Shown piece by piece: positions 6,693-62,440 of a stretch of DNA of 64,000 nt (position 1 is the stretch's first letter; every line of letters begins with the position of its first letter). The notes beneath the pieces are model-generated. The model was not told where the DNA came from and did no database searches. It saw only the letters and a program-made list of their open reading frames with translations. Both the position numbers and the translations under genes were made by a program. The DNA lies in the NCBI GenBank assembly GCA_024811115.1, contig JAKOGH010000691.1, positions 1 through 64,000 of the forward strand, in the 5' to 3' direction. Source of the DNA: Terana coerulea (lineage: Eukaryota; Basidiomycota; Agaricomycetes; Polyporales; Phanerochaetaceae).

Positions 6693-8373
6693 ATGTCACA
6701 GTATAGTACAGAGTTCGCCCAATTCGTTTCCAGCATGTACGTGTCGTGACCCAGGGTAATATTTTTGGCCTATCCTTACGTTAAGTCTCCAGCCAACAGG
6801 ACAACTACATGACCTATGGCATCTCCGGTGAGTGTAGCGGAGTTATATTCGCCATATTCGTAATTAATGAGTTGGTGTTTGATTTACTAGCGATGATAAC
6901 CTATGAATATATCATCACACTCGGACAAGAAATCGCCACCGTATGGATGCGACGACCAACAGCCACATCCCTCCTCTTGCTCACTACACGCTGGGCAATG
7001 CTACTGTTCAATGTCCTTACACTTTCTCTAGGATCAAATAAGGTATGTAGCTTCGCTTAGGGGTAGGTTAATCTCCTACTCATGAAGCAAACGCCAGAGG
7101 TGCTGAACTTCCCGTTGCCGATCAAATGCGTACTCACCACGGAAACACCTTTCACAGCTGCGAGGCTGTGATTATCATGTTGGAAATTCTTAGCTTTATT
7201 GGATTCGCACAGGTGGCGTGTACGTCTCCCGATTTGCTCCTTGAAGCCGGACCGAATCTGATTTGTGCAGTCTTCTCTGCACTTCGAGCCGCCGCCCTTT
7301 GGAGCTCGTGGAAGTATCACCAGCTGGTATTTGTGGTCGTCGTTTTGTTTGGGCTGGTGCCGGTCGGTACGAACTCAGTGAGTGCCCCGTAATCTCCAGA
7401 ATCACAGCTCAAGCTCATGACGAACTCAGTTCATTCTCTCAAAATTCGGATATCAATATTGGGCCCCGCCGCTGAATACATGCACGACTTCCCTAAACAT
7501 GTCGGAAGAACTAAATCAAATGTGAGGCCGTTGTTGCGTTTTGTCACGCGTTAGGTACTCAGTTATCTCCCTAGACGTGCGTTTGAATCGTTCTGGGGAC
7601 TCCGAAGCTCATCTACTTATCTCATGGGGTTCTATGTACAGTGACTTTATTCACAAGGGCCTCGCTGATCCTTGCAGATGTCTTGGTTCTCGTCTTGACA
7701 TGGGTTAAGACATTCAGGCATTGGCGGCTGGCGAAAACCATGAACCTGCCGACGTCGCTCTCGTCTTGTCTCCTTCGTGACGGTAAGATATGCTTGACCG
7801 CCATAATCACATACCAATTGACGACTTCTGTAGGATCGTGGTATTTCCTGTATGGCCTGCTCTGTCATTCAAAATAGGATCTGGGTTCACATGATCACTG
7901 CAGTGCATTACTCGCAATAAATATTAGTCAAATGGCCACGTCCGAGACGGCTGAAACCTTTGTACGTTAGCCATTTCTCTCTGGACCTCACTGCTGACAG
8001 CCCTGGGCAACGATAGGGGCAAACGTCGCTCAGCAGCTCACTGTGTCAATGGTAAGTCTGCATTTGTTTTGTAGACGGCACATGCTAACCGCCGTTGCGA
8101 TAGCCACCCGTTCTCATGAGCCGATTCATGCTGAACCTTCGTCAGCTCAACGATGCAGACCGTCCGCGAATACGCTCGGACGGACAAGTGACCACAATGT
8201 TTTCGGTGCCGAACTTTAGGGTTCCGACGGAGTCGCTGGGTAACATCGCCGAGCCCCTGGATCACGGACAAGCTGAACGATTTGCACGTGGAGACGAAGA
8301 GGGCGACCTTACGGTAGACGAGCAGCCAGAAATCGAGCTCCAGCCCGTTACGGGATCTCCAGCTGAGATGTAG
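6693..8373 (+). CDS. DUF6533 seven-helix membrane protein, copy A (intact)
   Basis: Predicted 343-residue integral membrane protein of the basidiomycete DUF6533 family; function unknown. Exons: 6693-6736, 6793-6827, 6891-7042, 7098-7099, 7158-7219, 7271-7377, 7430-7521, 7575-7576, 7642-7782, 7834-7849, 7904-7961, 8001-8051, 8104-8373. They total 1032 nt, exactly 344 codons with the stop. Landmarks are TYEYIITLGQEIATVW (DUF6533 core), TTRWAML (TM2), FFSALRAAALWSSWKYHQL after TM3, VPVGTN, APPLNTC, LVLTWVKTFRHW (TM5), SSCLLRDG, and the family tail MSRFMLNLRQLN followed by NFRVP and GNIAEPLDHGQ. Two exons are only 2 nt (AG and AC); without each the downstream frame is lost. Six or seven hydrophobic helices suggest a serpentine topology. 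It is the best template for the other copies. Confidence 0.85.
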
Positions 8374-9924: not shown

Positions 9925-11619
9925 ATGTCGCAACCTAGTGCGGAATACGTGCAGGAGGTGTACGAACTGTGCGTGCATCATTATGATTTCCGTCGGCGCA
10001 CACTGATGAAGATATTTATTAAGGCGACTGGACACCTACGCGACTCTGGTGGTAGTTGGTGAGTGTACCGCGTCATGTAATGGGTACCTTCGATTACTCA
10101 GACCGGCCTGCCGGATTTCTGCTAGCGGTGACTATCTACGAATACGTCATGACTTTTGACCATGAGGTCACCACTGTGTGGAAGAGACGATTGGCCGCCA
10201 CGTCTCTTTTTTACTCAGCACGCGCTGGGTGATGGTGCTGACCCAGGTTCTCACGTTGTGGCCATCGTCGCAAGAGGTGCGCGGTATTGCCGCGGTGCAA
10301 CGTCCTGCTCACCACCGGGAAACAGAGGTCCTGTGCATCCTAGTCTCTGCGGAATGTACGCTGAGGCTAACTTTGCAGCTGCAAGCCTATATCTATTGCT
10401 CAGCAAATATTCGACTATATCGCATTTGGTCAGATCGCTTGTAAGCTTCCTCAACATACTCATTGACTCGTAATTGACTTTTGATACCCGACATAGTATT
10501 CTCCGCGCTCCGTGCAGCTGCCCTTTGGAGTGGATGGAAGTATCACCAGGTGATCTTCGACGTCATTGTCCTGATTGGATTAGTTCCGGTTGGTACGGAC
10601 TTGGTGAGAGCTTTCCACCCTTAGCATCTGCTGCTATTGAAATGCCTCAAACCCACACAGTTTGGCCTTGCTCGCTTCCAACATATGTATTTTGGACCGC
10701 CATTAAACGTGTGCAGTGCCACGGTCGGGATTTCGGACAACCTCAATCAAATGTGAGGAACGCGCCACTTTTTTGCTGGGTTGCATGCTCATTTTTCTTA
10801 CGATTAGCTGTGCGCATGAACTGCCTGAACACGCGTTCAGTTACCTCTGACTTACTGTGACGAGCAGTATCCTTGCTTACAAGAGCCTCGCTCACATCTG
10901 TCGATGTACTTGTCCTTGCGTTGACATGGGGAAAGACTTTCACGCATTGGCGGGAGGCAAGTCGAATGAACCTGTCCGCATCGTTGTCATCCTGTCTTCT
11001 TCGCAACGGTAAGAAGTGCTGCACTGTAGATTTAACAGCCATTGCTCATCATTTTTATAGGTACTTGGTATTTCCTGTACGCAATCAAGCATGGTATATG
11101 CACTCAAACCTATCTTACTGTGTCAACTTCCACTTTTATAGCGCATTATTTGCTGTCAATATCACACAAGTGGTAACTAAAAGTGCGGATACGAAGCTGG
11201 TGCGTGCTTCGCCCGCTTGGATGCGTTGTCTAACCATGCCGGCTTAGGGCGGAGCAGTAGTCAGTCAGTTGGTGGTGGCAATGGTAAGCTGGTGCTTTCT
11301 CAAGATTTTCAAGGCTCAGTAGCAATCACCGCAATAGCCACCTGTTTTGATGAACCGGTTCATGCTCAATCTTCGCCAACTCAACCTGCCCAGCAACTCG
11401 CAGACGCACTCGGGAGCAGCGCAGTTGTCGCGATTCTCGACACCGAACTTCAGAGTTCCCGAGTCGGATTTGATTGGAAACATCGGCGAGCCGCTTGAAC
11501 ACGGACAAGCAGAGAGCAACGTGTACGAAGACGAAAGGTCGAGCGATGTCAGCTCCCCTCAGCAGCCGGAAGCTGGCTCAGATGCCATCCCAGGACCGTC
11601 AAATATCACGCACGCGTAA
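9925..11619 (+). CDS. DUF6533 seven-helix membrane protein, copy B (one-base frame break)
   Basis: Second + strand DUF6533 paralog with the exon structure of copy A: 9925-9968, 10024-10058, 10126-10276, 10326-10327, 10379-10440, 10497-10603, 10661-10752, 10808-10809, 10868-11008, 11061-11076, 11142-11199, 11248-11283, 11338-11619. Recognisable blocks are VTIYEYVMTFDHEVTTVW, LSTRWVMVLTQVLTL, CKPISIAQQIFDYIAFGQ, FSALRAAALWSGWKYHQV, FGPPLNVC, LALTWGKTFTHW and the C-terminal tail MNRFMLNLRQLN with IGNIGEPLEHGQ. Exon 3 carries six T at 10207-10212 where the family frame needs seven, so translation as read would end soon after TM1. Every other exon junction stays in frame. This is either a base-calling error in the homopolymer or a very young pseudogene. 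The 2-nt exons here are AG and CT. Confidence 0.75.
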
Positions 11620-25668: not shown

Positions 25669-27372
25669 TTACGCACAGCCGAGAGCCGACGACGTGTCCG
25701 CAAATGAATCCAGCTTCAGGGCATCGCCACGAAAGTCGTCTGTTGACCGCTCGGCGGCAGCTCCAGACAACCCACCCTCGTCCTGGTCATGAAGCCTCTC
25801 GGAGCCCCCATGTTCAAGAGGCTCGCCGATGTTGCCAATAAAGTCAGAACGAGTCCTAAAGACTAGCGCTGAGGGAGTCGAGATGTATCGCGCGTTCGAG
25901 TTCGTTGGCGAGTCGTCGTGGGTGTTGAGCTGGCGCAGGTTAAGCATGAACCTGTTCATGAGGATAGGTGGCTATGCCAGAGATTATCGCTTGGCTCTAT
26001 CGCGCTCGGGATATGCACACTCACCATTGACACGATCAACTGCTGGGCTGCATCCCCGCCCTAATTCAACAGGATCTTAGCAGAGCGACTACGATGAGAA
26101 AGGTGCACCTTACCAGCGTGGTAGTAGTGGAAGTTGCTATTTGCGCGACATTGAGTCCAAGCAATGCGCTAGAAGACAATGACCGCAGATTTAGTACAGC
26201 TGTACGCTCGTGTAAACGCGCGTTTCTTACAGAAAATACCAAGTGCCTAAAATCACTATCAGACATGCGCTTAACAGGAGAATTAGTATCACTGACCGTC
26301 ACGAAGGAGACATGAGGATATTGACGTTGACATGTTTAGTCGTCTTGCCTGTCGCCAAAGCCTGAAAGTCTTCAGCCACGTTAAGACCAATACCAATGCA
26401 TCGGCAAATATCAGGGCGGATCGGGTGGACAAGGTTACTGTTTTCTTCAGTGAGTATGTATTGCACAGGGTTGCTGTTAGGGTGTCCGCACGCACGGCTG
26501 ATCCTGACGTCAGCTTGCGACTCTGCAGAATCCAAAATCTTGTCTTACGTCTCATATAGCGCATCGGAAATGTCGGCCTCTGCGCTGCAATATCCCAAAA
26601 GAGGGCCAGTGTACGTGTAGACGAAGCGAGACGTCAGGAACTGAGCTGATAGTAAGCATTCCTGCCGGCGCTGCTCAGAATAATGGGTGCTCACTAGGTT
26701 CGTGCCGACTGGTACCACTCCGAGCAGAACAATGACTGCGAAGACGGCTTTGTGGTATCTCCACCCGTTCCAAAGAGCGGTTGCGCGAAGTGCGGAGAAT
26801 ACTTCGTGAAGAGGGTGTCAGTCCAGTCTGACCAATGACAAGAACGCCGCGAGAGACTCACAAGCCACTTGGACGAACCCGATGCAACCAAGCACTTCAG
26901 TGAAGAGTATGAGGGTCTTGCAGCTGTGGCGGCTGGTTCAGTAAACATCTGGCTTGACAATAGAGAGCTCTCAACTTCTGCAGGCTACCAATTAGTGCGC
27001 ATTTCATGTCTAAAGCGGCAAGTTGCTACGTAGCCGGTGATGATGGCAGCATCATGGCGATCTGGTTCAAGACCATCACCCAGCGCGTGCTGAGTAAGAG
27101 GAGCGATGTGGCCGTGAACTTCCTTGACCACACGGCGATGACCTCCTGGCCAAGTGTAATGAAATATTCGTAGATGGCGATTGCTATTTATCATAAGTAA
27201 GCGGGTGTAATTCGCGTAGCGCCGCAATACCACTCACTGCTAGTTGCAAATATTATGTAGTTGACTAACACTCTGGCAGGAGTTAGCTATCAGGGCGTGC
27301 TCTGCGTAATCGCGAGTGTGATGCTCACTCATCGGATACTTCTTGCACGAATTCCGTACTGGAGGAGGACAT
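25669..27372 (-). CDS. DUF6533 seven-helix membrane protein, copy C (first microexon lost)
   Basis: Intact paralog with ATG at 27372 and stop at 25669. The exons read MSSSSTEFVQEVSDEVLVNY, IAIYEYFITLGQEVIAVW, LSTRWVMVLNQIAMM, CKTLILFTEVLGCIGFVQVA, FSALRATALWNGWRYHKAV, VPVGTN, YTGPLLGYC, TRSALIFADALVLVLTWLK, SSCLLRDG, and the tail MNRFMLNLRQLN with IGNIGEPLEHG. The second 2-nt exon (CC at 26496-26497) is required. At the first microexon site this copy differs: the third exon is two bases longer (ends AC) and joins straight to CTGCAAG. An AA pair flanked by CAG and GTTGAG at 26976-26977 looks like the retired microexon. The C-terminal tail is longer and more diverged than in the other copies. 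Confidence 0.82.
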
Positions 27373-29423: not shown

Positions 29424-31133
29424 CTAAACGCATGTCAACGACCCGGTGATAGCTCCCAGCCTGACTTCCGGCTGTCGCCCAAGAGCTTCAAGCTTGTTCT
29501 CTTTGCTTTCGTGCACCATCCCCTCGTCTTGTCCGTGCTCGAGCGGCTCGCCGATGTTGCCAATTAAATCGGACGGAACCCTGAAGTTCGGCAGCGAAAA
29601 TCTTGAGAAGTGCTGCAAGTCCGAGTGTGTTTGCGAGTCACTGGACGCATTCACTTGCCGGAGGTTGAGCATGAACCGGCTCATAAGAACGGACGGCTGT
29701 TCGAGGCCCCGGCTGATATGAGCGTTGTCGACTCTCAATGACTCGTGCAATCTCACCATGGCTACAATGAGTTGACTGATTATCTGCTCGCCCTAGTCCA
29801 GGATGAGTTCGTTGAATGACATGACGTGAATAGAAGGCCACGAACCAACGTTTCAGAGGTATTGTATATCACTATGTGTGTGATGTTAAGTCCAAGTAAA
29901 GCACTAGAAGACGGGAGGTAATGCAATTAGACCGTGCTGTGCGCCTGTGTTGCGCTGTGTTGCGTACAGAAAATACCAAGTACCTAGCAACACAATGAGT
30001 AACATTTCTCAAGGGAAATGACGGGGCCTCTGACCGTCGCGAAGGAGACAAGAAGATACTGATATTGATAGCTTCATTTGCCTTGCTTCTTGCCAATGCC
30101 GGAAGGTTTTAATCCACGTTATTACAAGCACCAGAATGTCTGCCAAAATCAGCGAGCATCTTGTGAACAAGACTACTATTTATTGAGATTAGTAAGCACG
30201 GTAGAAATACCTCCACGAAATTGCTACACACGGCTGATGGTCGGTGTCAGTAAGCTGCAGCAGAAAGGTATGGTGAGCTTGCCTTTGATTTAGCTTTGGT
30301 GAAATATCAATAGTAATCGTACATGTCCTCAGTAGAAGGCCAATATATGCGTAGTGGTAGTTCGTAATGTTGTACTGTGTCAATGAAATACTTAATAGTC
30401 ATTGCTACTCGGAGTAAGAATCTCTTACTAGGTTTGTACCAACTGGAACCACTCCAAAAATCGCGATAATTGCGAAGATAATTTTAGAATATTCGCGAAA
30501 ATTCCAGAGAGCGGCTGCACGAAGTGCAGAAAATACTGTGTCAAGGCCATGAGTGTTCCAACCAACACGAGTACTTCAAAGTACTTTAAAGCACTTACAA
30601 GCTACTTGAGCATATCCAATGCAGATGAGCATTTCCTGAATTATAGATACGGGCCTGCAACTGCACAATGCGGGTCAGTAAGTATTATGGATTGAAAGCA
30701 GGCTCTCGGAGCTCAGCACCTCTGTACAATATACAGTGAGCAAGCTAGTAGCGGTATTCACATGATTAGACTGTTACAGACCTCTTGTGATAATGGTACG
30801 AGCACAAAGATCTGTGCTGCGACCATTGTCCACCGGGTACTGAGAAGTAGTAAAGACGTGGCGGTGAACCGTCTTGTCCACACAACAGCAACTTCATCCC
30901 TGAAGGTAACCAGATAGTCATAGAAGATTATCACTTAGGAGATAAACATCGAAGTAAACAATCGATACTTCAGGCAGCATAGCTCCCTGTTACTCACCAG
31001 AAACCGCAACAGCTATGTAGTTGCCTGATTGACTGGCAGAAGTCAGGTGTAATTACACGCTGAAAAACATCGGAGGAGTTGCGACGCACTTTGCAGCGAA
31101 TTCTTGCGCATATTCTGCACCGGATTGGGCCAT
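29424..31133 (-). CDS. DUF6533 seven-helix membrane protein, copy D (intact)
   Basis: ATG at 31133 begins MAQSGAEYAQEFAA, then QSGNYIAVAVS, VIIFYDYLVTFRDEVAVVW, STRWTMVAAQIFVLVPLSQE, CRPVSIIQEMLICIGYAQVA, FSALRAAALWNFREYSKI, VPVGTN, ADILVLVITWIKTFRHW, SSCLLRDG, and the tail MSRFMLNLRQVN followed by NFRVPSDLIGNIGEPLEHG. All exon junctions keep frame with the two 2-nt exons AG (30720-30721) and CC (30232-30233). The intron before the second microexon starts with GC (AATCAAAG then GCAAGC) instead of the GTGAG found in the other copies. The stop codon is at 29424. It is transcribed in the same direction as copies C, E and F. Function unknown. Confidence 0.83.
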
Positions 31134-34734: not shown

Positions 34735-36830
34735 AGCCTATACACCACTTAAGCAATGTCAGCAATCCATTTGAAGCTAGCAAAATAGGGTGTACTCACT
34801 TTATTCACTTGCAGTCTAAGCCTACACATGGGTGGAAGGTTCAGTAATGGGTTCAAGCTCAATTTCCGGTGGCTGTTCTAAAGCTGCAGCTCTGCCATTG
34901 TCCTTGTCAAGCTCAAGCTCATTAGCCTGTCCATGTTCGAGTGGTTCACCAATGTTGCCAATTAAATCTGATGGAACTCGGAAGTTTGGCATTGAGAACC
35001 TTGAGAAATGCTGTGCATTAGAGTTTGTCTGTGAGTGTTCAGTATTATTGAGCTGGCGCAAGTTGAGCATGAATCGGTTCATGAGTACAGGTGGCTATAT
35101 CCATAGTTGGAATTTAGTACTAAATGATTTAATCAATACAAGCCTACCATAGAATTAACAAGTTGTCCAACAAAGTTATTTCCCTAATGTCATAGTATGC
35201 TTTTGTTAATAGCAGCAGAGAAATCTTCACATATATAGAAAACATACAGTTGTATTAACTCCAGTGTAGGCAGTTACCACACGTGCAATATTGATCACTA
35301 GCAAAACTCTGAGTTATGTAGGTTAGTATGATAAGGCTTGGTTATGCATAGTATATAAGTGTATCTCTTACAGAAAATACAAAGTTCCTGCAAAGACTAT
35401 TAGCATGGCTTATATAATAGCATAAAACTAGCCAATCTTACCATCTCGGAGAAGGCAAGTTGAAACTGAAGTTGACATCCCTATAGATCTTGCTGACTGC
35501 CAGTGCTTAAAAGTCTTGATCCATGTTAAGATTATAACCAAAACATCAGCAAGAATTTGTGAGCCTCTTGTAAGCATAGCAACTGCCATGTGTAAAAATG
35601 TTTAAAAATGGTTGGACTGCTAAAGAGTTATCTGGACATACATCTAAAGATATAAATTAGCATAAAAACCAGTACAAATCCAATAATAATCTCACATTGT
35701 ATTCAAATGTTCTGAAACTCCAATACTTGTTGCACATATGTTGAAAGGTGGCCCAATATATGCATACTCATACTGAGAAAGCCCAAACTAAGTTTACAAT
35801 GGATTAGTGAGTGATTATTTATAAAAATGAATTCTAACCATATTAGTGCCAAAAGGAACAAATCCAAGCAGGGCAATGGCAGCAAAGATGATTCTGGCAT
35901 ATTTGGAGGAACTCCAGAGAGCAGTTACTCTAAGGGCAGAAAACACTGTATATAAGAATGAACATTTGATTAGACTAGCAGTAATTAATTAAAGCACTTA
36001 CAAGCAACCTGAATAAGTCCAATACATTCTAGTACTGCTTGAAAAATTGTCAAGGGCTTGCAACTATAGAGGCTGTTTTAGCAGGTATTCATTCAAATGT
36101 AAAGAGCTTAGCACCTCTGTAGCATAATAGTAAGTATAGTTGCCATTCTTTGTGAGTAAACATCACACACCTCTTGCGACTTTGGTGCAAGTGCTATGGC
36201 CTGGGTAAGAACCATTACCCAGCGTGTGCTAAGCAGCAGAAATGATGTTGCTGTAGCACGTCTTCTCCAAGCAGTATCAACTTCTTCTCTAAATGTTATG
36301 AGATATTCATACAGCATCCACACTAACACAATATATGTTGGCATGAGCAATAAAGGAGTGCCAGTAGTATGGCCTTAAGAGACTCACCAGCAGTTGCAGT
36401 GCCAGTGAAGTTGACAATTTGACTAGCAGAAAAGTCAGCATAAATACAGACAGAAAGACCTCACAAGTCATAGTAGAGCGCACAATTCAAAGATAGCTTG
36501 TGCATTTGCTGCATTGGATTGTGACATGATGCAAGTGGCTTTGTTAGAGAAGGAGGTTCAAGGAGTATGAGTATCATGCCCAGGATTCAGGCTTATATGC
36601 GCACTGCTGAGCACCAGACTTCTGATGGCCTCATTGACCAACACTCAAGCATGCTCATTGTTGTTTAGAGCGCACAGTCACATTGTCAATATCGTCATAG
36701 AATCAACAATCACATCTTAGCCTATACATAGCCACCATGCATGTCATGATGTGTTCACTGTGAAAGATGGACAAACGCACGCAGAAGGAAGCGGTGTGTG
36801 CGTAAAGAGCCACAGCACGAAGATTGAAGG
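34735..36830. repeat. Segmental duplicate 1 (pairs with 60350-62440)
   Basis: This block and 60350-62440 align over about 2.1 kb, including DUF6533 copies E and G, their introns and about 300 bp beyond the start codon. Shared landmarks include CAATGTCAGCAATCCAT near the 3' side and TTGTTAGAGAAGGAGGTTCA just upstream of the start. Both blocks are AT-rich compared with the other family members. Confidence 0.85.
34822..36527 (-). CDS. DUF6533 seven-helix membrane protein, copy E (intact)
   Basis: ATG at 36527 starts MSQSNAANAQAIFEF, then QIVNFTGTATA, VWMLYEYLITFREEVDTAW, LSTRWVMVLTQAIALAP, CKPLTIFQAVLECIGLIQVA, FSALRVTALWSSSKYARI, VPFGTN, IGPPFNIC, ADVLVIILTWIKTFKHW, GNNFVGQLVNSM, and the tail MNRFMLNLRQLN with NFRVPSDLIGNIGEPLEHG. 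Frame is maintained through all exons with 2-nt exons AG (36115-36116) and AT (35642-35643). Codon use is noticeably more AT-rich than copies A-D, and the surrounding DNA is AT-rich too. Its nearest relative is copy G. The stop codon is at 34822. Function unknown. Confidence 0.83.
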
Positions 36831-44704: not shown

Positions 44705-46389
44705 CTAGCTCGACCTCCGGCGGCTCGAGAGGTGCGGCGCCCCAGTCACTGCTTTTTCATTACTGAATTCTTCATCTTGTCTGTGATCAAGGGGCTCGCC
44801 GATGTTACCCACGAAGTCCGAGGGGGTCCTGAAGCTCGGCATCAATGAGGACTGCGGTGCCTCCGAGCGCGAGAGCGAGCCGCTGTTGCCAGCACCGAGC
44901 TGGCGCAAGTTAAGCATAAAGCGGCTCATGAGCACTGGTGGCTATACATCGTAGCAGCCGTATGAGTGCGGAGCAATGTGTACAAGAGAGGTGACGGAAA
45001 CTCACGAAGGTTATGACGAGCTGAGAGACGAAGCTTCCGATCTGAAATAAGATACGGTTAGACCGTTGGATGTGTAAAAGCAGCCATGATACTACACACC
45101 AGCGCAGTATCGTCGCCTAAACCGGTCATCTGCAAGATATTGAGTCCAAGGAGAACACTAGCAAATGATAAAGGGTACACCAGGTCAGCGTGGGCATCAC
45201 CGTGTCGGAATGTGACATACATGAAGTACCAAGTACCTGTACATGCGTCAGCAGCATATTGGTGTCAGGAAGAAGAGCCTCTTACCATCGCGGAGAAGAC
45301 AGGATGCAACCGACGTTGGCAGCCCCAAACGTCTCCCCCAACCTCCAGTGCCGAAAAGTCTTGCTCCATGTCAGAACCAATACCAATGCGTCGGCGAATA
45401 TGAGTGCCCCTCGAGTGATAAACACCACTGAACGTCCTTGTGAGTACAGCGTGCGTTAGATACTCGCAACACAGGCTGGACGCACGTCTAATCGCATTCA
45501 TGAATACGCAGTTATGCTGAAATGAGCTCTTGATCCACTCACATTTGATTGAGATGATCGGAAATGTTGGCAACCAGGGTGCACGTAGGCAGCGGCGGAC
45601 CGCTATACATATAGCTATACTGAGAGGTGGTGTACTGAGCTGATGTTTAGCGCAGTGGGCACTGTTCAAGTGGCATAAGGCCTACCAAATTTGTGCCAAC
45701 CGGGACCATTCCGAGGGAAAATATCACAGCGAATATGATTTTGTGGTACCTCCAGTCGTTCCATACAGCCATCGCTCGAAGTGCGGAGAACACTATGGGA
45801 AAGAAAGGGGGTGAGACGTCTGTTCCGAGCATTGGAAAGAATTGCCCCAAAGAACTCACGTGCGAGTTGGCCGAGGGCCATGTAGTTGAGCACTTCTTCA
45901 ACAATGAGAATGGGCTTGCAACTGTAGAGACAAGGTTAGCGGAGGATTTAACTAAGCAGGCGAAAGTACCTAACCTCTACAACTCGCTGGTTAGTATGTA
46001 GATCATCCTACGGCCGACAACATATTGACATACCTCAGATGATAACGGCAGAACCCCGAAGATCTGGTTCAGAACCATGACCCAACGCGTGCTGAGCAAG
46101 AGAAGAGATGTGGCTGTGAGTTTCTTCATCCACACCGTGCTGACTTCCCGCCCGAGTGTGATAAGATATTCATAAATAATGACGGCTGGCGAGACGCATG
46201 ACAAGTCAATTTATTCAGCGTATGCAAGGCGCAGCTTCAAGCTGATATTCACCGCTGACCGCATATAATACGTAGTTGACAAGCCGACTTGTAAAAGACT
46301 GTTGTAAATATGCGGTTCGAGTGGTAGATAGGCGACGAGACGCACAGGCTAGACACTTCTTGTGCATATGCTGAACCGGATTCGGACAT
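44705..46389 (-). CDS. DUF6533 seven-helix membrane protein, copy F (one-base frame break)
   Basis: ATG at 46389 opens MSESGSAYAQEVSSL, followed by SRLVNYVLYAVS, AVIIYEYLITLGREVSTVW, LSTRWVMVLNQIFGVLPL, CKPILIVEEVLNYMALGQLA, FSALRAMAVWNDWRYHKI, YSGPPLPTC, ADALVLVLTWSKTFRHW, the tail MSRFMLNLRQLG, and PSDFVGNIGEPLDHRQ. The 2-nt exons are AG (45975-45976) and AC (45486-45487). In the TM5 exon, four C on the + strand at 45323-45326 add one base. With three, the frame continues as GLPTSVASCLLRDG, as in the paralogs. All other junctions keep frame. This is either an assembly error or a fresh inactivation. The stop codon is at 44705. Confidence 0.76.
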
Positions 46390-60349: not shown

Positions 60350-62440
60350 GCTATATACAGCATAAACAATGTCAGCAATCCATCCAAAGTGCACAAGATA
60401 AAGTCTACTCACTTTATACATATGCAATCCACACCTACACACAAGTAAAACTTTTAACAATGGGTTCAAGCTCAATCTCCAGTGGCTGTTCTGGAGCTGC
60501 AGCTCTACTTGCATCCTCATCAAGCTCAAACTCATTAACCTGTTCATGTTCAAGTGGCTCGCCAATGTTGCCAATCAAATCTGACAGAACTCAGGTTGAG
60601 CATTGAAAATCTTGAGAAATGCTGCGCATTGGAGTTTGTTTGTGAGCATTTATTGTTATTGAGCTGGCGCAAGTTGATCATGAACCGGTTCATGAGTACA
60701 GGTGGCTATCTCCATAGTTGCAGTTTAGTACTAGGCAATTTGAATTGATACAAGCCTACCAAAAATTAACAAGTTGTGCAATAATGTTATCTTCCTGTTG
60801 TCATAGTATGCCCTTGTTAATAGCAGCAGAGAAATCTTCACATATATGGAAAAAACATACAGTTGTACTAGCTGCAATATAGGCAGTTACTACATGGGCA
60901 ATATTAAACACTAGCAAAACCCTAAATTATGCAGATTAATGTTGGCAGGCTTGGTTGTGCATAGTGCATAAGCATGTTCCATACAGAAAATACAAAGTTC
61001 CTGTAAAGACTATCAGCAATGCTTCTATAGTAATATAAAACTAGCCAGTTTTACCATCATAAAGAAGGCAAGATGTGACTGAAGTTGACATCTCAATAGA
61101 TCTTGCTGACTGCCAGTGCTTAAAAGTCTTGATCCATGTTAAAATGATAACCAAAACATCAGCAAGAATTTGTGAGCATCTTGTAAGTGCAGCAACTGCC
61201 ATGTGAAAAAATGTATAAGTATAGTTAAATTGCTGAAAAGTAACTTGCACATACGTCTAAAGCTACAAATTAGCATGTAAGCTAGCTGATTTCCAATGGT
61301 AACCTCACATTGCATATAAATGTTCTGAACGGCTGCTATTTGTTACACATATATTGATAGGTGGCCCAGCATATACATACTCATATTGAGAAAGGTTGAA
61401 CTAAGTTTACAATGGATTATTGAGGGGCCATTCATAAGAATAAACTTCTTACCATGTTTGTGCCAACTGGCACAAATCCAAGCAGAGTGATAGTAGCAAA
61501 GATAATTTTGGCATACTTAGAGGAGCTCCAAAGAGCAGTTACTCTAAGAGCAGAGAATACTGCATATAAAAGTGAGCATTTAGTTAGGTTAGCAATAGTT
61601 ACTTGAAGCACATACAAGCAACCTGAATAAATCCAATATATTCCAGTATTTGCTGAAGAATTGTCAAGGGCTTGCAACTGCAGAGGCTGTTTTAGTAGGC
61701 TTTTCTTCAAAGATACAAAGCTCAACACCTCTATAACATAACAGTAAGTATAGTTGCCATTTTTGCATGTAAACATTACATACTTTCTGTGATACTGTTG
61801 CAAGTATAATTACCTGGGTGAGAACCATTGCCCAGCGTATGCTAAGCAAAAGAAATGATGTTGCTGTAGCACGTCTTCTCCAAATAGTATCAACTTCTTC
61901 TTTGAATGTTATAAGATATTCATATAGTATCCATACTAGCACAATATGTGTTGGCATGAGCTATAAAGGAGTGCTAATAGCATGACATTCAGACACCTAC
62001 CAGCAATTGCAATGTCTGCAAAGTTGTCTATTTGACTAGCAGAAAGTTAGCATAAATGCAAACAAAAAGACCTCACAAGTCATATACACACAAAGCAGAG
62101 ACTCTTTTACATATGCTGTATCAGATTGCAACATGATGTGAGTGGCTTTGTTAGAGAAGGAGGTTCAAGGAGGATGCATACTACATTCAGGATTCAGGCT
62201 TATATATGTGTTGCTGAGCAACAAACTTCTGATGGCCTTGTTGACCAACACCCAAGTATGTCCATTGTTGTTTGGAGCACACAGCTGTGTTGTCAACATT
62301 GTCATAGAATCAATATTCCTATCTTAGTTTATACATAGCTACCATGCACATCAAGATGTGTTTGTTGTGAAAGATGAACAAGCTCATGCAAAAGGAAGAT
62401 ATGCATGCATGAAGAGGCACAGCACAAAGATTAAAGGCTT
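60350..62440. repeat. Segmental duplicate 2 (pairs with 34735-36830)
   Basis: Aligned against the first copy, most differences that I checked are transitions, and many are CpG in one copy against TpG or CpA here (for example GCGCACTGC against GTGTTGC, and TCGTCATAG against TTGTCATAG). This copy has also lost single bases in coding exons. Confidence 0.8.
60435..62134 (-). pseudogene. DUF6533 seven-helix membrane protein, copy G (decaying)
   Basis: Starts MLQSDTAYVKES at 62134 and preserves most exons: QIDNFADIAIA, VWILYEYLITFKEEVDTIW, IRWAMVLTQVIILA, CKPLTILQQILEYIGFIQVA, FSALRVTALWSSSKYAKI, VPVGTN, YAGPPINIC, ADVLVIILTWIKTFKHW, and MNRFMINLRQLN. The 2-nt exons are AG (61729-61730) and AC (61255-61256). 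Two single-base losses break it. One is at the end of the exon near 60770, where AATTTTTGG replaces the AATTCTATGG of copy E. The other is in the tail near 60592, where AACCTGAGTTCTG replaces AACTTCCGAGTTCC. Neither change simply shortens a run of the paralog's bases, so decay is more likely than base-calling error. The in-frame tail would end at 60435. Confidence 0.75.

Follow-up and report, generated by a model that had tools for sequence, protein, structure and literature searches.

A probable two-nucleotide exon ahead of the fifth membrane helix in DUF6533 genes of Terana coerulea

Ultra-small exons are a known kind of gene element, since exons of a single nucleotide (nt) have been established in plants and in Fusarium. 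The case considered here comes from the basidiomycete Terana coerulea, where a window of 64,000 nt (contig JAKOGH010000691.1 of assembly GCA_024811115.1, positions 1 to 64,000) carries seven gene copies related to the DUF6533 family of seven-helix membrane proteins. In each copy, a dinucleotide ahead of the fifth transmembrane helix (TM5) lies between two introns. This dinucleotide is very probably a constitutive 2-nt exon of a large DUF6533 family, placed between two U2-type introns.

In Fusarium, 20-24 CYP621A cytochrome P450 genes have a 1-nt exon confirmed by RNA reads (PMC12940212). As in Terana, these are fungal nuclear genes in which an exon far below normal size was deduced from incompatible intron phases; the splice context is the same across orthologs, an intronless relative carries the base in line, and gene assembly fails at that place. 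Contrary to the present case, the exon of CYP621A measures 1 nt, occurs once per gene and is RNA-confirmed, whereas here 2 nt are predicted, up to twice per gene, in dozens of diverged paralogs of one genome. The 1-nt exons of APC11 and VPS55 in plants (PMC4674806, PMC8831610) are likewise ultra-small, long conserved and missed by annotation, and relatives hold the base inside a larger exon. They exist, however, in few copies and have been validated by assays, reverse transcription polymerase chain reaction or RNA sequencing, while the DUF6533 case concerns a large fungal multigene family with several exon lengths between one intron pair. The same size class includes exons of 2-5 bp from Arabidopsis, Drosophila and human as well as micro-exons in the P450 genes of the white-rot fungus Phanerochaete chrysosporium (all cited in PMC12940212); the citing sentences mention no family-wide conservation. 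Stwintrons (PMC5639578) resemble the present arrangement in that adjoining introns are removed successively, but they leave no exon, where here two coding bases would remain.

No report of a '2-nt microexon' was found in the literature searched, supplements, most subscription journals and bioRxiv being outside its scope, and the passages on DUF6533 found there do not mention such exons. As far as these searches show, what appears to be new is the spread over dozens of diverged paralogs, the second such exon per gene, and the several states of one intron pair.

The seven copies in the window

DUF6533 (PF20151) is recognised above the Pfam cut-off in the N-terminal part of five of the seven window copies, among the best 150 of 267 candidates; copies 2 and 5 fall outside those best 150 and have the same downstream gene structure. 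One family member, SNB1, is reported to be required for fruiting-body patterning in mushrooms (PMC10949477). Seven long helical segments are seen in an AlphaFold2 model of a relative, P0002; the TM5 helix spans residues 153-191, and the residues equivalent to the exon, 158-159, fall within its first turns.

The first-pass annotation had placed one dinucleotide in each copy, and all seven positions agree with the sequence, two on the plus strand and five on the minus strand. Its description of the flanks needs some adjustment. YAG precedes and GTRYGY follows in every copy, and GTGCGC in the copy at 10808 lies outside the donors first proposed. The whole gap (intron A, 2 nt and intron B) spans 107-120 nt rather than 110-120 nt. 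The proposed upstream exon end, AATCAAAT, is found in the copies at 7575, 10808 and 45486 and differs in the remaining four (AAG followed by gcaagc in the 30232 copy), and the proposed downstream start TGACT holds for the copy at 7575 only. The elements are as follows; the value given with each 2-nt exon is the change in alignment score when its second donor is masked.

7430..7521, plus strand: copy 1, upstream exon (before the loop and TM5)
7522..7574, plus strand: copy 1, intron A, 53 nt, GTGAGG..CTAG, phase 2
7575..7576, plus strand: copy 1, 2-nt exon AC (third base of an Ile codon and first base of a Leu codon), -33 bits
7577..7641, plus strand: copy 1, intron B, 65 nt, GTGCGT..ACAG, phase 1
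7642..7782, plus strand: copy 1, downstream exon (TM5)
10753..10807, plus strand: copy 2, intron A, 55 nt
10808..10809, plus strand: copy 2, 2-nt exon CT (I-L), -35 bits
10810..10867, plus strand: copy 2, intron B, 58 nt, donor GTGCGC
26498..26548, minus strand: copy 3, intron A, 51 nt
26496..26497, minus strand: copy 3, 2-nt exon CC (T-L), -22 bits
26438..26495, minus strand: copy 3, intron B, 58 nt
30234..30282, minus strand: copy 4, intron A, 49 nt, GC donor gcaagc
30232..30233, minus strand: copy 4, 2-nt exon CC (S-L), -25 bits
30176..30231, minus strand: copy 4, intron B, 56 nt, GTGTGT
35644..35695, minus strand: copy 5, intron A, 52 nt
35642..35643, minus strand: copy 5, 2-nt exon AT (I-F), -24 bits
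35583..35641, minus strand: copy 5, intron B, 59 nt, GTATGT
45488..45542, minus strand: copy 6, intron A, 55 nt
45486..45487, minus strand: copy 6, 2-nt exon AC (I-L), -10 bits
45428..45485, minus strand: copy 6, intron B, 58 nt
61257..61308, minus strand: copy 7, intron A, 52 nt
61255..61256, minus strand: copy 7, 2-nt exon AC (I-L), -17 bits
61196..61254, minus strand: copy 7, intron B, 59 nt, GTATGT

A GeneWise-like spliced alignment of protein to DNA recovers the 2-nt exon in all seven copies and leaves no gap at the junction. The residue pairs that had been predicted to be restored, I-L (four copies), I-F, T-L and S-L, were reproduced by this profile alignment, and deletion of the entire gap as one piece shifts the frame. 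Three features of an ultra-small exon (microexon, up to 15 nt) are present: the coding stretch of a few bases has an acceptor of its own before it and a donor of its own after it, the reading frame needs it, and relatives carry the bases inside a larger exon.

Conservation among the paralogs

The genome (48.4 Mb, 896 contigs) contains at least 150 DUF6533 matches, this being the number scored out of 267 candidates. Some matches sit on several contigs with equal scores and may represent alleles or duplicates. The survey covered 80 of 121 planned regions, and 105 DUF6533 matches fall in that DNA. A first profile of 115 columns was built from 13 uninterrupted transcript-like relatives; its alignment to the DNA, in which introns were permitted, gave 61 places, 55 of them non-redundant. 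The best model has an exact 2-nt exon in 48 of these 55 paralogs, including all seven window copies, and the score falls in 48 of 48 when the second donor is masked, by 2.7 to 41.3 bits (median 16.9). The joined models are free of internal stops in 53 of 55 cases; since stop codons are excluded by the alignment itself, this adds no independent support. A simple pattern count (44/59) was superseded by the alignment, because it had miscounted locus L021, whose 'acceptor' CCAG is coding.

In the 48 gaps with a 2-nt model, YAG-N{k}-GTRNG was counted for every k up to 20, starting at 0 and requiring a minimum of 45 nt on either side. A spacing of 2 is found in 41 of the 48 gaps, spacings of 0 and 6 in 3 each, and any other spacing in 0-2. 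Since the gaps had been selected for a 2-nt alignment, the fair control is the other spacings and not the absolute number; after simple shuffling of their interiors, 0.4% of gaps show the spacing-2 motif, or 0.19 expected in 48. The pairwise identity of the intron interiors is 44.6% for intron A (42.9% when shuffled) and 44.2% for intron B (43.0% when shuffled), and the 55 protein models share 37% identity on average (minimum 20%, maximum 81%). With introns this close to shuffled identity and proteins this diverged, the motif is not a relic of recent duplication, and it persists although the surrounding introns are almost saturated.

These counts bear on two explanations without an exon. A stwintron or a recursive splice site would be removed stepwise, keeping nothing of the inner sequence in the messenger RNA (mRNA), and has some appeal because the introns stand almost back to back, would need successive removal, and complex introns are known in fungi (PMC5639578, PMC6616335). 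Total removal, however, breaks the frame. No splice consensus is interrupted, as it would be in a stwintron, because both introns carry intact donors and acceptors, and the AG abutting GT of a recursive site corresponds to spacing 0, seen in 3 gaps against 41 with spacing 2. The two letters moreover lie within an exon in L021, so that this explanation has next to no probability. Decaying or misassembled genes, whose frame breaks mimic an exon, are suggested by a few loci, two genes at L059 and one in L081 (at 788), where frames look broken or ambiguous near the junction. The identical two-letter solution in 48 of 55 diverged paralogs, a motif far above its shuffled expectation and one constant column are not what random decay would produce, and decay of the genes is scarcely credible.

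The fused state of this exon is represented by L021 (C590, 1-2423), which has no first intron: its upstream exon runs GAT GCC AGA C into the second donor, so that the two letters are joined, in the predicted frame, to the upstream exon. Uninterrupted exons in a different frame would have spoken against the dinucleotide exon; in the surveyed loci, the only continuous case recognised is L021. Its nearest transcript-like relative, P0011 (65% identity), is continuous at the junction as well. The motif, its conservation, the frame and this fused case can be read directly from the genomic sequence.

In diverged loci, the same place appears to hold longer exons. With a wider profile, a phase-2/phase-1 intron pair encloses 8 nt in L025, L026, L011, L012 and the identical pair L010/L035, 23 nt in L016 and 2 nt in L028. 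The 8-nt cases score low (4 to -28), the best of three shuffles each reaching -50 to -62, and L013/L014 offer an 8-nt candidate by pattern that the alignment does not pick. The lengths of 2, 8 and 23 nt between this intron pair equal 2 modulo 3, a series established more weakly than the motif itself. The original claim of a conserved 2-nt exon is supported by the 48 of 55 paralogs, the transcript-like relatives discussed below, the fused frame of L021 and, with low scores at 8 nt, the longer exons of 2 modulo 3.

A whole-gene profile of 236 columns, applied to the 55 models, shows intron positions that are largely fixed across the family. Only two small exons (up to 15 nt) recur at the same column and length, and both measure 2 nt: the one at the TM5 junction (columns 140/141) in 46 of 55 models plus 2 shifted, and another at columns 52/53 in 30 of 55 plus 1 shifted. 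All remaining exons of this size are single cases for their column and length. The exon at columns 52/53 lies between introns of phase 0 and phase 2, most often reads AG (19/30), and was left unresolved by the model in window copies 2, 3 and 5. L021 has one intron only at this place, so that both dinucleotides lie in larger exons there. Two such exons in one gene family had been called exceptional in the first-pass annotation; both do occur together in 27 of 55 models, and the word is too strong in view of the published 1-nt exons (PMC4674806, PMC8831610, PMC12940212). In the window, the exon at columns 52/53 was placed as follows.

7098-7099, plus strand: first 2-nt exon (columns 52/53)
30720-30721, minus strand: first 2-nt exon (columns 52/53)
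45975-45976, minus strand: first 2-nt exon (columns 52/53)
61729-61730, minus strand: first 2-nt exon (columns 52/53)

Besides these, all seven window copies have a 16-nt exon flanked by introns at columns 188 and 193; the two introns are present in 48 and 51 of the 55 models.

7834-7849, 11061-11076, 26231-26246, 29968-29983, 35372-35387, 45221-45236, 60985-61000: 16-nt exons of copies 1 to 7

Relatives in other genera and points against the exon

The named relatives nearest to copy 1 belong to Phanerochaete. Transcripts of Terana coerulea itself were not found by protein search, and the best identity between a transcript-like protein and a gene model is 65%. Transcript-like records are here proteins from contigs of 1.1-3.3 kb with uninterrupted open reading frames of about 250-440 residues, presumed to be complementary DNA. 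Among the 23 examined, 17 have a recognisable TM5 pattern, and in 15 of these the distance from the loop Cys to the TM5 Arg is 19 residues, the same distance as in copy 1 when the two letters are included.

Proteins P0001-P0174 were also aligned to a profile of the genomic models, in which the junction corresponds to columns 60-72. The junction is free of insertions and deletions (indels) in 26 of 29 transcript-like proteins versus 46 of the 124 genome-annotated ones covering it (145 tried; Fisher p 2e-7), an indel being present in 3/29 and 78/124, respectively. With the 13 proteins that went into the first profile set aside, the independent transcript-like count is 13 of 16 (p 0.001). Of gap openings, the annotated set has 72 in the two 6-column junction bins and 3 in the next two bins, and the transcript-like set has 3 and 0. 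Both sets also have many gaps in columns 12-17 and 42-53, with 95 and 76 openings among the annotated proteins and 20 and 16 among the transcript-like ones, as variable loops would be expected to show, and a strong contrast between the sets is seen at the junction only. As the sets differ in species and divergence, the contrast supports a missed exon in other genera and is no proof of it. A systematic annotation error at this junction in the Polyporales relatives is likely, and the 2-nt exon may explain it.

Many gene models of relatives at NCBI indeed seem to use a different solution, in which one intron covers the whole gap, or two introns surround a longer exon, and shifted splice sites keep the frame. 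At L061, L009, L058 and L080, such a model scores only 3-5 bits worse than the 2-nt exon. The best competitor, however, varies from locus to locus, whereas the 2-nt solution is identical in 48 of 55, and the competitor requires gap columns between 50 and 80 in 38 of 48 cases, though a few of the preferred models are gapped there too. Shifted sites also leave unexplained why an acceptor and a donor are conserved two bases apart between introns that cannot be aligned, and why the transcript-like relatives agree with the two letters. This solution is accordingly considered very unlikely.

Several observations weigh against the 2-nt exon. The transcript-like records could be intronless genes; two of the 17 (P0085, P0104) have no Cys at distance 19, and P0103, P0104 and P0127 show an indel at the junction. 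The closest pair of a transcript-like protein and a paralog (P0011/L021) is only 65% identical, and L021 itself has no 2-nt exon. In the surveyed DNA, 46 of the 105 DUF6533 matches yielded no model with the first profile. Among these 46 places, the wider profile finds the intron pair in 8, mostly with very low scores, L013 and L014 have it by pattern only, and in the remaining 36 no such exon was recognised by wider profile and pattern. Seven of the 55 models are without the 2 nt: L021, two in L059, L078, L081 (at 788), L056 and L053. L021 is fused and one of the two L059 genes has 4 nt; for the remainder, the ambiguity lies in the frame, in a possible GC donor or in the alignment. The strict motif is present by pattern in L056, and L078 has GC at the second donor. 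In two of the 48 models with the exon, both from L017, its position is shifted by one or more columns. Finally, the second exon base gives Leu in 30 of 48 cases against 18 expected with random bases, and swapping this base between loci causes no significant drop in Leu (0.13), so that this test of coding constraint on the two letters is only partly informative.

Splicing and significance

Introns A and B, with median lengths of 53 and 56 nt, are ordinary in size as well as in donor, acceptor and branch-like motif. CTNAY is found about 14-15 nt from the intron end in 80% of A and 78% of B introns, compared with 59-75% in eight other introns of these genes. A pyrimidine occupies donor position +4 in 72% of second donors and 20% of first donors; a weak second donor as a sign of the order of removal was dropped, because four other introns of these genes reach 63-73%. 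A GC donor in the first intron beside the 2-nt exon is seen in two paralogs, at 30282 in the window (AAG, then gcaagc) and at locus L084 (gcaagt).

For the 2-nt exon, a mechanism can be proposed in which both introns would be recognised across the intron (intron definition) and not across the exon. As the first acceptor and the second donor share about a dozen bases, the introns are most likely excised in succession: whichever goes first, the two letters would become attached to an exon of normal size, from which the other intron would then be excised. At the start of TM5, the exon would complete one codon with its third base and open the following codon with its first, and the frame would depend on it. 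The intron pair is probably old in the family, enclosing 2, 8 or 23 nt in its diverged members and lacking its first intron in L021. Inclusion in Terana coerulea mRNA and the sequential removal of the introns, with its order, are what we infer, as is constitutive use, since the signals are ordinary and the frame needs the exon.

The exon could also be real but regulated, skipping shifting the frame before TM5 and inclusion serving as an on/off switch of a receptor-like protein. Any skip would break the frame, the 27 models with two such exons would have two control points, and Trichoderma Xlr2 is reported to have a microexon that acts like a switch (PMC11121469). The ordinary signals of both introns rather suggest constitutive use, which makes regulation quite unlikely.

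A broader scenario is speculative and rather improbable. The two-letter exons would be ancient splicing checkpoints of an expanded family of wood-decay fungal proteins resembling G protein-coupled receptors, in which the reliability of splicing in a fixed order sets receptor output, and much public annotation of the family in Polyporales would be wrong at both sites. If true, the exons would have been kept despite complete intron turnover because a skip at either one destroys the frame.

A constitutive 2-nt exon would provide dozens of natural replicates, within one genome, of a near-minimal exon flanked by normal introns. The family would offer a test bed for how the spliceosome copes with an acceptor only two bases from the next donor, and for the origin of such exons, with states of 2, 8 and 23 nt and a fused state between one intron pair.
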